This document shows, piece after piece, positions 1 through 4,658 of a stretch of 36,034 nt of DNA. Made by a program: the position numbers and the translations under genes. Positions within the stretch are counted from its first letter, which is position 1, and each line of letters begins with the position of its first letter. The stretch is from Nanohaloarchaea archaeon B1-Br10_U2g21 (GTDB lineage: Archaea; Nanohalarchaeota; Nanosalinia; Nanosalinales; Nanosalinaceae): assembly GCA_001563915.1 (NCBI GenBank), contig LKMP01000009.1:1-36034 (forward strand). Reading direction: 5' to 3'. Under the pieces are notes generated by a model. The model saw nothing but the letters and a program-made list of their open reading frames with translations. It ran no database searches and was not told where the DNA came from.

Positions 1-324
1 GGTCAAAGAACTGAACAAGGAACTAGAAAAAATGTGGACACAAGAGAAAGAAGTCTGGCAGCTACAGCACAATTGATAGCTGCTAAAAACAGAATACCTT
101 GCGGCATCAAGAAATTAAGACTAGATAACAAAACAAACTATAGGCTAGTGTTTACAGTTTCCGACAATATAGTCATAGAAGATGGAAAAATGAAGCTAAA
201 AGTTCTCAGAAAGAAAGAATTATCTAGAAACTCCCCTAGAGAAGTAGAACCTCAACAGAAAGTATATAATCTCCAAGTAAAAGACGACGAGAGCTATTGC
301 ACAACCACAGTAGCGCTTCACAAT
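1..324 (+). mobile_element. Intein, C-terminal part (5' end outside window)
   Basis: The reading frame is open from base 1. Residues coded from about base 49 (RSLAATAQLIAAKNRI, then CGIKKL and YRLVF) resemble the region after the second LAGLIDADG motif of DOD homing endonucleases. The stretch coded at about 262-324 reads VYNLQVKDDESY...VALHN and is followed by Cys. This matches intein splicing blocks F and G, with penultimate His, terminal Asn (322-324) and a +1 Cys (325-327). Immediately downstream the frame becomes ligase. The N-terminal splicing block and most of the endonuclease lie upstream, so endonuclease activity cannot be judged. The C-terminal splicing residues are all present. The block F position that is often His is not obviously His here. 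Confidence 0.85.
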
Positions 325-1209
325 TGTCAAATACATGTCAAAAATGATACAGTCAAATTATACACTAGAAGACTTGAAGACGTTACAAAGCAGTTTCCTG
401 ATGTTAAAAGCGCAATAGAGAAACAGGTTGATGCAGAAAACTGTATTATTGATGCTGAAATTGTTGGCATGAAAGACGGAGATGTAATTCCCTTTCAGAA
501 GCTTTCCAAGAGAATAAAGAGAAAGTATGATATTGAAAGATTAAGAAAAGAGATTCCTGTAGAGGTAAGGCCTTTTGATTTACTATACATGAACAAGTCT
601 TACATGATGGAGCCTTACAAAGAGAGATTAGAGGTCTTAAGAGACGTAATTGAGGAAAATGGTGACATAAAATTTGCTGATCAGATTATAACTTCGGACA
701 TAGAGGACGTGAACGAGCTGCAGCAGAAAGCACTAGCAGCTGATCATGAAGGTGTTATGATGAAGTCATTGGAGGCAGAGTATAATCCTGGCTCTCGAGT
801 GGGTTACATGGTGAAGCTTAAGCCTGTGATGGAAACTCTAGATTTAGCAGTTATAGGGGCCGAATGGAGCGAAGGCCGTAAGAGTGGCTGGCTTGGGCGC
901 CTCAAGCTTGGTTGCTGGAACCAGAACACGGAAGAATATGAGATGGTGGGACGAATGTCTTCAGGCCTTACAGATAAGCAGCTTGAAGAAGTAACTGAGC
1001 GTCTGAAGCCGCTAATCACTGCGGAAGATGGTCGTGATGTTGAACTACTACCTGAGGTTCTTTTAGAGGTTGAGTACGAGGAAGTTCAAAAAAGCCCTAC
1101 GTATAATTCAGGATATGCATTGCGTTTCCCGCGCCTAAAGAAGTTTAGAGACGATAAAGAACGGCCTGATAGTAAAGAAAAAGTTGAGAGACTTTACAAG
1201 TCTCAATAA
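1..1209 (+). CDS. lig: ATP-dependent DNA ligase with in-frame intein (5' partial)
   Basis: After the intein, bases 325-1209 encode 294 residues of the C-extein of an archaeal ATP-dependent DNA ligase, which seals nicks in replication and repair. Visible nucleotidyltransferase motifs are CQIHVKND (just after motif I), DAEIVG (motif III), VRPFDLLYMN (IIIa), EGVMMKS (IV) and VKLKP (V). The OB-domain motif LRFPRLKKFRDDK lies near the end. About 300 residues after motif I is normal for the family, so this end is complete. The nucleophilic Lys of motif I and the N-terminal DNA-binding domain are upstream of the window. By family alignment the intein sits a few residues after the KxDG motif, so the enzyme should be inactive until splicing. 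The GTG at 34 is internal, not a start. Confidence 0.93.
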   Translation, partial: GQRTEQGTRKNVDTRERSLAATAQLIAAKNRIPCGIKKLRLDNKTNYRLVFTVSDNIVIEDGKMKLKVLRKKELSRNSPREVEPQQKVYNLQVKDDESYCTTTVALHNCQIHVKNDTVKLYTRRLEDVTKQFPDVKSAIEKQVDAENCIIDAEIVGMKDGDVIPFQKLSKRIKRKYDIERLRKEIPVEVRPFDLLYMNKSYMMEPYKERLEVLRDVIEENGDIKFADQIITSDIEDVNELQQKALAADHEGVMMKSLEAEYNPGSRVGYMVKLKPVMETLDLAVIGAEWSEGRKSGWLGRLKLGCWNQNTEEYEMVGRMSSGLTDKQLEEVTERLKPLITAEDGRDVELLPEVLLEVEYEEVQKSPTYNSGYALRFPRLKKFRDDKERPDSKEKVERLYKSQ

Positions 1210-1213
1210 TGAC

Positions 1214-1576
1214 TTATGCGTGTTTCTGAGCCTTATGAATTTTCATACCTCGTTCAGTGTCGAACTCTTTCCCACAGACAGGGCATTTATTCCTTGTAGA
1301 CGTCTCGGTTTCTTGGTGTTCCTTTTCTTTTTTCTTTGACTTCTCTTTCTTTGTCTCAAGTCTCTGTTGTATATCAAATCCTCTATCTGTATCTTTTTGC
1401 ATACGCAGCTTCCACTCATCACTCTCAAGCCAGATTATGAACGCACCAACGATCACAAGTAGCGGGCCAATCACTGCTTGAGTAAAGTTTAGTATCTCTG
1501 TCGAGTAAGTCAGCGATGCAAAGATTCCTAGTACCACCATAAACGCTCCTATAAACACTTTTAGTCCTGGATGCAT
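1214..1576 (-). CDS. Two-TM membrane protein with C-terminal C2H2 zinc finger
   Basis: The family is not recognised. From the ATG at 1576 the protein is 120 residues. Two hydrophobic segments (about residues 3-22 and 30-51) form a hairpin. A very charged Lys/Glu-rich stretch follows, and the tail has one classical C2H2 finger: CPVCGKEF, then an HKAQKH histidine pair at the C-terminus. An upstream in-frame TTG at 1600 would add eight residues; I prefer the ATG because the segment preceding it looks like leader sequence. The finger presumably faces the cytoplasm. It is convergent with the ligase gene (stops 4 bases apart) and divergent from L15e. A single finger on a membrane anchor suggests recruitment of a protein or nucleic acid, but that is a guess. 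Confidence 0.7.
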   Translation of the reverse strand: MHPGLKVFIGAFMVVLGIFASLTYSTEILNFTQAVIGPLLVIVGAFIIWLESDEWKLRMQKDTDRGFDIQQRLETKKEKSKKKEKEHQETETSTRNKCPVCGKEFDTERGMKIHKAQKHA

Positions 1577-1682
1577 GTTATCACAACTAAACGATGACAA
1601 AAAGCTCTTTTATTTGTTCCGCTTTCTCAGACTAGGGTTTATAATATTTGTCGCAGAACACGAAGTTACGAGCTGACACAGG

Positions 1683-2284: not shown

Positions 2285-2875
2285 ATGGGCTTCCACGACT
2301 TTTTAATCAATTTTCAACCAGAAAACACTCTCGGATGGAGCCAGCAATCTATAGACTCAAAAACAACTCTACTCCAAGAAGAAAACTGGGGAGAGCTTAA
2401 GAAACAGATTCAGCAAAAAAGCAGTGGCGCAGAAGTTTTAGTCTATCTTGGCGGCAAGAACAAACTTAATAGGAAAGCTGTAGAAGATTCTCGTATCGAT
2501 ATACTTCTCCATCCAGAGCATCATAGAAACGACTCGGGACTAAACCATGTTTTGGTCAAAGAAGCAGCCAAAAATAATGTATCAATAGGTATGGACTTCT
2601 CAAAACTCTACAGCGCAGAGAGAAAGGATAAAGTGATGGCAGACTGGCGTAAAAATTTGAAACTATGCGAAAAATATGGTGCGCCTTACATAATTACAAC
2701 AAATGCCTCTGAAAAACGAGAACTACGCGCTCCCCGAGATTTAGCAGCTCTAGTAACAGTATTAGACGGAAATGGAATTAAAGCAGTAAAGCACAGACCT
2801 AAAAAAATACTTGAAAGAGTTGAAAAGCACAAGAGCGGAAGATTTGTAGGGTCTGGCATAGAAGAGGTAGAATAA
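2285..2875 (+). CDS. rnp3: RNase P protein component 3 (Rpp30)
   Basis: TIM-barrel-like protein subunit of archaeal RNase P, which removes 5' leaders from pre-tRNA. The central IDILLHPEH, then SGLNHVLVKEA and VSIGMDFSKL, are hallmarks of the Rpp30 family, and the later APYIITTNA segment fits. Length 196 residues is at the short end of the normal range. Its stop (TAATG) overlaps the start of Rnp2, so the two subunits, which form a heteromeric subcomplex in characterised archaea, are translationally coupled. A box gtaaaaaac about 27 bases before the ATG would make the mRNA leaderless if used. Confidence 0.95.
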   Translation: MGFHDFLINFQPENTLGWSQQSIDSKTTLLQEENWGELKKQIQQKSSGAEVLVYLGGKNKLNRKAVEDSRIDILLHPEHHRNDSGLNHVLVKEAAKNNVSIGMDFSKLYSAERKDKVMADWRKNLKLCEKYGAPYIITTNASEKRELRAPRDLAALVTVLDGNGIKAVKHRPKKILERVEKHKSGRFVGSGIEEVE

Positions 2876-3195
2876 TGAAAACTTTACCTAAGTCTCTTAG
2901 AGAAAAGAAACGATATCTCAAGATAAAAATCGAATCAAATAATCGAAAAGAGTTTTCAGAAGTAGTGGACCTCATAAGAAGTGCCATAAAAGAGTTCTCG
3001 GGAGAAAAAGGACTATCAAATGTAGAACCTTGGATTCTTAAAGAAAATTTTGATTACAGAGAACAATGTTTCATAGTAAAAGTGAATCGAGACTTTGAGA
3101 ATGAATTCCGTGCAGCAATTATCCTCTATGATATAAATGGCCTAATTTATACGGAAAAAGTTTCAGGCACTCTAAAAGGCCTTCAATCATCTTGA
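2875..3195 (+). CDS. rnp2: RNase P protein component 2 (Pop5)
   Basis: Pop5-family subunit of RNase P, 106 residues. It opens with LPKSLREKKRYLKIKI, the diagnostic Pop5 start. It continues with GLSNVEPWIL and ends with EKVSGTLKGLQ, matching the conserved C-terminal SGT-KGL. Pop5 pairs with Rpp30 to activate the RNase P RNA. The ATG overlaps the Rnp3 stop by one base. The 3' end overlaps the convergent gene at 3183-3503 by 13 bases. Confidence 0.95.
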   Translation: MKTLPKSLREKKRYLKIKIESNNRKEFSEVVDLIRSAIKEFSGEKGLSNVEPWILKENFDYREQCFIVKVNRDFENEFRAAIILYDINGLIYTEKVSGTLKGLQSS

Positions 3196-3503
3196 GTTAT
3201 ATTTGTCAATGTATCCATACCTGTTTCAAAGTCATCCCATAGTGTAACAAGTCCATGTATGGCTTGTTCTATAACCCCCATCTCAGAAATGGGCTTATCG
3301 CTTTCACGAATCTCGTCAGTATCTATAAAACCTGTTTCACTATCATTAATCGACTCATTCCCATTAGACACTATATCCCCCGCATCTTCAGGCGAAGTAT
3401 CTTGTGGAGCAGGTTCAGAAATATGGACCATAAATACAGTCAACACAGACAGAAAAAACATTAGCCCCATTAGGAGCACTGCCGCCTGTGTCGAACTATT
3501 CAT
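3183..3503 (-). CDS. Small single-TM acidic protein, unknown
   Basis: Not recognised. 106 residues: a short polar N-terminus, one strong hydrophobic segment (AAVLLMGLMFFLSVLTVFMV, about residues 7-26), then an acidic Asp/Glu/Ser/Asn-rich domain that should face outside as in a signal anchor. The opposite-strand frame over the same bases is serine-rich and looks like a shadow, so this strand is preferred. A TATA-like gttataaat lies about 30 bases upstream on the minus strand. It is divergent from TBP, with 130 bases between the starts. Confidence 0.6.
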   Translation of the reverse strand: MNSSTQAAVLLMGLMFFLSVLTVFMVHISEPAPQDTSPEDAGDIVSNGNESINDSETGFIDTDEIRESDKPISEMGVIEQAIHGLVTLWDDFETGMDTLTNITQDD

Positions 3504-3585
3504 TAACTTCTCTTTAGTTATACTGCAATTTATAACACAATGGTCATCAGGCCTTTTAAAAGAGTTAGTTTATAAATCCAATTTA

Positions 3586-3614
3586 AACCGTATATAAATT
3601 GTTTATAAACGGTT
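3586..3614. promoter_or_regulatory. Inverted repeat with two opposed TATA boxes in the TBP promoter
   Basis: Left arm AACCGTATATAAA (3586-3598) and right arm TTTATAAACGGTT (3602-3614) are 13-base inverted repeats with one mismatch around a 3-base centre. Each arm contains a TATA box, so the element presents two boxes in opposite orientation. A third box, gtttataaat, lies at about 3569-3578. The TBP start is at 3633, preceded by a Shine-Dalgarno AAGGTG. The position over the core promoter of the TATA-binding protein itself suggests autoregulation; that is inference. Confidence 0.65.
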
Positions 3615-3632
3615 GTAAGGTGAAACAATGCT

Positions 3633-4181
3633 ATGGTAGAGAATAAAGATATCGAAATACAAAACGTCGTCGCATCAGCCACATTCGATCAAAGACTTCC
3701 TCTTGACAGGATCGCTATATACCTTGAAAACACAGAGTACGAGCCAGAACAGTTCCCAGGCCTAGTATACAGACTCCAGGAACCAAAGGCCGCAGCACTA
3801 CTGTTCGGTTCAGGAAAAGTAGTTTGTACTGGTACAAAAAGCCCAGAACAAGCTAAAGAAGCAACGCACAAGATTATAGATGAGCTTAGAGAAGCGGATG
3901 TCGAAATCGGGACTAAACCTGACGTAACAGTACAGAATATTGTTGCTTCAAGCCAGCTAGATGGGAACCTAAATCTAAACAGAATCGCATTCGAACTAGT
4001 TGGAACAGAATACGAGCCAGAACAATTCCCAGGCCTAGTATACAGACTCGACGATCCATCAGTAGTATTCCTACTCTTCAGCTCAGGTAACCTAGTATGT
4101 ACAGGCGGTAGAACCTATGAAGATGTGGAAAATGGAATTGAGCGACTAGAAGAGAACTTGAAAGAAATCGGTGCGCTTTAA
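3633..4181 (+). CDS. tbp: TATA-box binding protein (TBP)
   Basis: General transcription factor that bends promoter DNA and recruits TFB and RNA polymerase. 182 residues, the usual archaeal length, built as two direct repeats of the saddle fold. Each repeat has the pattern VQN(I/V)VAS...L(D/N)(L/R)(N/D)RIA, YEPEQFPGLVYRL, LLF-SG--VCTG. The identical 15-residue stretch TEYEPEQFPGLVYRL occurs in both halves. The start is the second ATG of AATGCTATGG at 3625-3634; the upstream ATG is out of frame. The Shine-Dalgarno AAGGTGA at 3617-3623 supports this. Unlike many genes here it seems to have a short leader. The promoter contains a large inverted repeat (see that entry). Confidence 0.98.
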   Translation: MVENKDIEIQNVVASATFDQRLPLDRIAIYLENTEYEPEQFPGLVYRLQEPKAAALLFGSGKVVCTGTKSPEQAKEATHKIIDELREADVEIGTKPDVTVQNIVASSQLDGNLNLNRIAFELVGTEYEPEQFPGLVYRLDDPSVVFLLFSSGNLVCTGGRTYEDVENGIERLEENLKEIGAL

Positions 4182-4187
4182 GCACCA

Positions 4188-4658
4188 TCATTTCCTCTTA
4201 TTTTCCAAAACACAGTCTAAAGCTTTTAATGCAGTTCTTCTAGCATTTTCAGGCATATTCAAATCTTTATTTTCTAACTCTTCGCGAGAAAACCACCTAA
4301 TATTTTCTTCAGCATACTCTTGATCTTCAATTTCATCCACGAGCCGTCCCAAATACTGAAAATCGCAATGCCAATGATGCTCATCAACCTGATGTAAATT
4401 AACATTCAAGGGTTGAGGCAGATCAAAACTGTCATCTAGCTCCGTATTAGCCCCTATAATTTCTATTTCTATACCCGTCTCCTCTAAAGTCTCCCTAATA
4501 GCACACTCATCCGGCGTCTCACGGCTTTCAATATGACCTCCAGGTTGGAGCCAAACACCATATTTTTTGTGGTTCAAGAAAAGCACCCTTTGTTTTTCCA
4601 CAACAAAAGCTCCAGCAACAAAATCTCTGTTTGCATCTTCTGGCACTCTCAAATCCAT
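4188..4658 (-). CDS. Nudix hydrolase
   Basis: 156 residues with a Nudix box starting at GGHIESRE and continuing through RETLEETGI, matching G-x5-E-x7-REUxEExGU. Nudix enzymes hydrolyse nucleoside diphosphates linked to another moiety; the substrate cannot be read from this sequence. WLQPGGHIE and a His-rich stretch (LHQVDEHHWHCDFQY) resemble unassigned bacterial and archaeal Nudix proteins. A strong Shine-Dalgarno (AGGAGGG) sits 6-7 bases before the ATG, and a cttataga box lies further upstream. It is convergent with TBP and downstream of the pterin dehydratase gene on the same strand, 55 bases away. Confidence 0.93.
   Translation of the reverse strand: MDLRVPEDANRDFVAGAFVVEKQRVLFLNHKKYGVWLQPGGHIESRETPDECAIRETLEETGIEIEIIGANTELDDSFDLPQPLNVNLHQVDEHHWHCDFQYLGRLVDEIEDQEYAEENIRWFSREELENKDLNMPENARRTALKALDCVLENKRK

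Follow-up and report, generated by a model that had tools for sequence, protein, structure and literature searches.

It has long been asked how cells adjust the level of a factor on which all genes depend, and the DNA in front of tbp, the gene of the TATA-binding protein (TBP), raises the question for the salt-loving archaeon Nanohaloarchaea archaeon B1-Br10_U2g21. The window, i.e. the whole stretch of DNA analysed (36,034 nucleotides, contig LKMP01000009.1), carries the sole TBP gene of the genome, ORF 3633-4181. Its best matches include the named relatives Nanosalina, Nanosalinarum and strain M3_22, which places it in the Nanohaloarchaeota. A preliminary description of the sequence had drawn attention to an inverted repeat before this gene, with 13-base arms, one mismatch, a 3-base centre and a TATA box in each arm, and had suggested that TBP could bind both boxes and limit its own transcription, or that the element could be an operator for another factor. 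We asked which part of this DNA is conserved, whether it is peculiar to tbp, and what it could do.

The inverted repeat and the TATA boxes before tbp

The repeat was confirmed exactly where it had been placed. Positions 3586-3614 read AACCGTATATAAA-TTG-TTTATAAACGGTT, 12 of the 13 pairs are complementary, and the 3' end lies 18 nt from the ATG of tbp. Allowing up to 3 mismatches, the full repeat is found at a single site in the 815,638-base assembly, and a reversed control pattern gave 0 matches. The left arm contains box D (TATATAAA, 3591-3598) and the right arm contains box E (TTTATAAA, 3602-3609). Since two TATA boxes are adjacent here and TTTATAAA is itself a palindrome, most of the symmetry requires no further cause; beyond the boxes the repeat adds just the ends AACCG/CGGTT, i.e. 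5 pairs.

The preliminary description had proposed to look for compensatory changes in the arms of relatives, and there were none. In the congener L032 the arms are 11 bases long, the outer two pairs being broken without compensation while the CCG/CGG ends are kept, and in the congener L002 the outer arm pairing is lost. The rest of the family has unrelated repeats or none at all. Moreover, the flanks of 28 adjacent box pairs in the family showed no excess of complementarity (36 vs a permuted mean of 32.6, P 0.25). To judge from these alignments, the inverted repeat results from two adjacent, nearly palindromic TATA boxes and is not a conserved unit.

The boxes themselves are a different matter. 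The preliminary description had overlooked three boxes further upstream (A, B and C) as well as a box on the opposite strand (Table 1). Boxes A, B, D and E match TWTAWAW, the archaeal TATA consensus; box C does not, and was picked up at -51 by a matrix trained by expectation maximisation (EM). When the upstream regions of 19 tbp genes of the family were aligned, a common ladder became visible, i.e. box A is followed by B at +14 or +15, by C at about +25 and by D at about +35, with a regular spacing that is mostly 11 to 15 nt. The ladder is incomplete in some members, as not every family genome has every box. Box E occurs in that position in L001, which is the window genome, and in L032 only; it could either direct a leaderless start or be a site that blocks. 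We consider it very likely that 3554-3609 is a real and conserved homotypic array of TATA boxes that is specific to tbp.

Table 1. Features upstream of and including the tbp gene
Feature	Position	Strand	Sequence and remarks
TATA box, divergent	3528..3535	-	reads TTATAAAT on its strand; position -32 relative to divergent ORF 3183-3503
Box A	3554..3566	+	TTTTAAAAGAGTT; farthest upstream, best conserved; from family alignment; predicted start ~3585
Box B	3569..3576	+	TTTATAAA; 14 or 15 nt from A; from alignment and spacing; predicted start ~3599
Box C	3582..3589	+	TTTAAACC; weaker, TATA-like, between B and D; from family alignment
Inverted repeat	3586..3614	.	boxes D and E plus AACCG/CGGTT ends
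Box D	3591..3598	+	TATATAAA; left arm; ~22 nt downstream of B; near start predicted for B
Box E	3602..3609	+	TTTATAAA; right arm; 11 nt after D; at -31
Shine-Dalgarno site	3617..3623	+	AAGGTGA; conserved before tbp in most family members
tbp (TATA-binding protein)	3633..4181	+	182 aa, single copy; Pfam PF00352, E 4.9e-60

The minus-strand box probably serves the divergent ORF and not tbp. Immediately before tbp come the genes of two RNase P subunits, p30 and Pop5 (Rpp14), at 2285-3195 on the plus strand, and the order p30 - Pop5 - tbp is kept in most of the family. The divergent ORF is present in part of it only, and the array is found with or without it; from this common context we conclude that the array belongs to tbp. 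A cause residing in the divergent gene was rejected, because the array persists in genomes where Pop5 immediately precedes tbp with the same orientation, e.g. in L003, L004, L005, L012 and L033. A scan of 3400-4300 for bacterial-type promoters returned 0 sigma-70-type sites, a class that is irrelevant for an archaeon. Two further ORFs of the window may be mentioned. A DNA ligase ORF enters from the window edge (34-1209, plus strand), and its first part ends in VALHNC ahead of the ligase domain, which looks like an intein C-terminus. The product of ORF 1214-1600 (minus strand) is small, with two hydrophobic segments and, at its C-terminus, a C2H2-like zinc finger below the Pfam cut-offs.

Specificity of the array in the family and across archaea

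The number of boxes was counted as the occurrences of TWTAWAW in the 120 nt before the start codon. Three or more boxes were found in 16 of the 19 tbp genes of the family (0 boxes in one gene, 1 in one, 2 in one, 3 in ten, 4 in four and 5 in two), the genes below three being L008 (0), L009 (1) and L013 (2). The 359 other family genes had no box in 279 cases, one in 72 and two in 8, and none had more; in the AT-matched subset (n=120, AT at least 0.62) the maximum was again 2. Shuffles that preserve the dinucleotides reached the observed count at P <=0.012 in 16/19 family tbp genes, and the test failed for L013 (P 0.045), L009 (0.18) and L008 (1.0). We note that the control genes came from an automatic ORF call and had at least 80 nt free upstream, a filter that was not applied to the tbp genes. 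L176, which duplicates part of the window, was excluded from the background, and L285 and L286 are outside all counts. The EM matrix, trained on the control promoters, was less specific than TWTAWAW and was not used further; at threshold 5 it pointed in the same direction (mean 3.47 in family tbp genes vs 0.83), with one background outlier of 8 hits.

The same picture emerged when whole genomes were searched for three boxes with gaps of 3-20 nt. In the window genome this pattern occurs at tbp only, with seven overlapping matches. It is present in 15 of the 19 family genomes, tbp being included every time, and five other places were found in three genomes; the family genomes G005, G007, G013 and G014 have no match. 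A reversed control of the pattern gave four matches in total over the 19 genomes. Two of the five non-tbp places (L152 and L160) were judged by their ORFs and had no clear meaning. Outside the family, in 12 archaeal genomes, the three-box pattern is not unique to tbp, and many of the matches listed are in AT-rich genomes.

The gene of TFB, the essential partner factor of TBP, is intermediate and without an array, with a mean of 1.28 boxes over the family (18 genes) and of 1.11 over 28 genes of a wider set from which 2 of 30 loci had been dropped as too short. Pairs of boxes 9-15 nt apart were seen in 2 of the 28 wider TFB genes. Start codons were set by rule, and some of the TFB starts and of the distant tbp starts are probably wrong.

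A surplus of boxes is also visible far beyond the family. From 121 loci we kept 104 archaeal tbp genes, having dropped those with no hit, no start, less than 120 nt or a duplicate; these have a mean of 2.13 boxes, compared with 0.55 for 340 further genes in these loci. The means are similar for a domain-wide subset (36 tbp genes, 2.06, vs 183 controls, 0.48) and for one genome per family (31 tbp genes, 2.03, vs 162 controls, 0.50). In the 104-gene set the excess is present in each AT stratum, and when genes lacking a box are set aside, two or more boxes are far more frequent in tbp than in the others (stratified odds ratio of about 6). Box pairs 9-15 nt apart occur in 46/104 tbp genes vs 9/340 controls, 10 nt being the commonest gap. 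A second set scored by the same rules, in which 39 of 40 genes were kept and which includes paralogues and close relatives of the first-set genomes, gave a mean of 1.54 for 39 tbp genes vs 0.28 for 116 controls, and 11/39 vs 2/116 genes with such pairs. Some archaeal tbp paralogues in this set have one box or none.

Position of the boxes relative to the Shine-Dalgarno site

In the control genes of the family the TATA word is most frequent 26-35 nt ahead of the ATG, i.e. around -30, as expected for leaderless genes, and from this peak we took the rule that a start is predicted about 30 nt from its box. A start from box A (3585) or box B (3599) would keep AAGGTGA in the mRNA, with a leader of about 34 nt from B, whereas a start from D (3621) would cut the Shine-Dalgarno site and one from E (3632) would be leaderless. 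Because starts from A or B retain the site, one of these two is most likely the main promoter box of tbp, as far as can be predicted from spacing. By the rule used, 17 of the 19 family tbp genes have a Shine-Dalgarno site. In the larger set a clear site was found in 75/104 tbp genes vs 80/340 neighbouring genes, so tbp mRNAs seem to be leadered more often than those of the neighbours.

When only genes with a clear Shine-Dalgarno site are considered, a box whose proximity to the site would make it non-productive was found in 30/75 archaeal tbp genes vs 3/80 controls, and within the family in 4/17 tbp genes vs 1/65 controls. This roadblock geometry is not universal, as in several relatives, e.g. 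L003, every box lies far enough upstream to be productive. In the distant archaea L030, L034, L095, L096 and L114 the TATA box abuts the Shine-Dalgarno site of tbp (TTTATAAAGGAGG or a near form), and in several distant archaea TTTATAAA passes directly into GGAGG. TBP bound at such an abutting box could stand in the way of initiation or elongation.

An ATG at 3628, out of frame with tbp (ATG CTA TGG TAG; 3620-3642), is separated from AAGGTGA by fewer bases than the start codon of tbp (ATG at 3633). It possibly opens a three-codon upstream ORF, which is absent in this form from L032 and L002.

A proposed model for the control of TBP supply

Every box of the array fits the TATA box of the archaeal core promoter (BRE/TATA/Inr, bound by TBP, TFB and RNA polymerase). 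Family genes often have a single box about 30 nt before the start codon, which is leaderless-like, and genes other than tbp have at most two boxes and mostly none or one, whereas tbp typically carries three to five in a regular row. It is this presence of extra TBP-type sites specific to tbp that gives a basis for a gene-specific site of TBP autoregulation. We think it quite probable that the array senses TBP dosage, whichever the sign of the response. That through it the tbp promoter responds to the TBP level and limits itself by way of the downstream boxes is, in our judgement, marginally better than an even bet, and for self-limitation of the TBP supply as such, whose sign and mechanism we infer, we put the chances at about even. 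The self-limiting sign is favoured because some boxes sit where bound TBP would block initiation from an upstream box. In other words, the suggestion of the preliminary description that TBP binds the boxes and limits its own transcription is strengthened by the finding that the extra boxes are conserved and tbp-specific, but its reliance on the inverted repeat fails.

The proposed sequence of events would be as follows. At low TBP one box would be occupied, most likely A or B, TFB and RNA polymerase would join, and initiation would yield a leadered mRNA containing AAGGTGA. As TBP rises it would fill further boxes, and boxes C, D and E are positioned between box B and its predicted start or slightly beyond; TBP bound there would exclude the polymerase loaded from A or B, so that initiation would fall. 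The level of TBP would thus stay within narrow limits, and a dedicated repressor would not be needed.

The main rival is that the boxes are redundant tandem promoters, several starts allowing tbp to fire when TBP is scarce, i.e. a positive, fail-safe autoregulation that would be wanted since no TBP can be made without TBP. Pre-initiation complexes on boxes 11-15 nt apart would overlap, so that the boxes cannot all be in use simultaneously, and this speaks against it, as do the enrichment of non-productive boxes beside the Shine-Dalgarno site (30/75 vs 3/80) and the fact that other genes, the essential TFB gene included, do without an array. Yet most of the extra boxes precede the Shine-Dalgarno site at a productive distance (per gene within the family, a mean of 2.76 productive vs 0.24 non-productive boxes), and a kinetic model of eukaryotic TBP gives autocatalytic expression a dead zero state below a threshold (PMC2928763). 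All in all we regard redundancy as rather unlikely. Chance AT-richness or general promoter strength, with no TBP-specific regulation, could be invoked since the tbp upstream regions have an AT content of 0.68 vs 0.62 in controls and TATA-like words are cheap in AT-rich DNA, but the shuffles (16/19 family genes at P <=0.012), the AT-matched and AT-stratum controls, the regular spacing and the alignable boxes make it improbable.

Two further explanations attach to the repeat and are both highly improbable. As the operator of another dimeric regulator, it could point to a near-perfect dyad with the non-TATA ends AACCG/CGGTT, of which CCG/CGG are kept in one congener; however, the dyad is absent in the second congener and elsewhere in the family, its flanks are complementary at the permutation level, and its single genomic copy at up to 3 mismatches leaves no regulon. 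The operator suggested in the preliminary description is thus unsupported, having neither a second genomic site nor a conserved symmetry. As a hairpin in the 5' leader, transcribed from box A and folding before the Shine-Dalgarno site, the repeat would act on translation or stability. The stem does fold (-9.3 kcal/mol in a 65-nt stretch), and in L007, L013, L014 and L016 unrelated short hairpins follow the last TATA box and precede the Shine-Dalgarno site; but the stem would be cut by a start from box B (3599), folding is only weak in L006, L009, L015 and L017, and the hairpins of the relatives differ in sequence and position while the TATA boxes are conserved. Searched with Rfam at the gathering score, the whole window contained two tRNAs as the only hits, i.e. 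no known regulatory RNA family.

The self-limiting array can be compared with several known systems. Homotypic operator arrays repress by occlusion, i.e. several copies of one site overlap the start and fill as the protein rises. The tbp array is similar in having multiple copies of one site around the start; unlike in those arrays, its sites would both start and stop transcription, because the bound protein is a general initiation factor. Haloferax volcanii mutants that contain more TBP2 protein have less TBP2 transcript, and autoregulation is put forward by the authors (PMC4895103); the likeness is that the TBP level feeds back on the tbp transcript via a TATA box, but in the excerpts of that paper the remark comes from transcript levels and a TATA consensus, and an array is not described. 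The eukaryotic model mentioned above is alike in that the TBP gene needs TBP and can be acted on by it; it differs by positive feedback and dimerisation, the TBP promoter being thought TATA-less by the authors (PMC2928763). Our search of the open-licence literature did not turn up any description of a TATA array before tbp in archaea.

A model of early transcription, in the portions of it that we consulted, predicts that archaeal promoters with several TATA boxes are selected against (PMC4802759). The tbp array contradicts the expectation that archaeal promoters avoid multiple boxes, and tbp would be a notable exception to that model. In the same portions a row of three TATA boxes is drawn in an ancestral promoter, but it concerns the last universal ancestor and tbp is not singled out (PMC4802759).

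Tentatively, the surplus TATA boxes may across the archaea start tbp at low TBP and block it at high TBP, and may constitute an ancient, repressor-free homeostat that is sharpest in the nanohaloarchaea. Because tbp is marked by a DNA signature that is unique in its own genome and enriched over much of the archaea, the question of how TBP is set becomes open to promoter-mutation experiments in culturable archaea.
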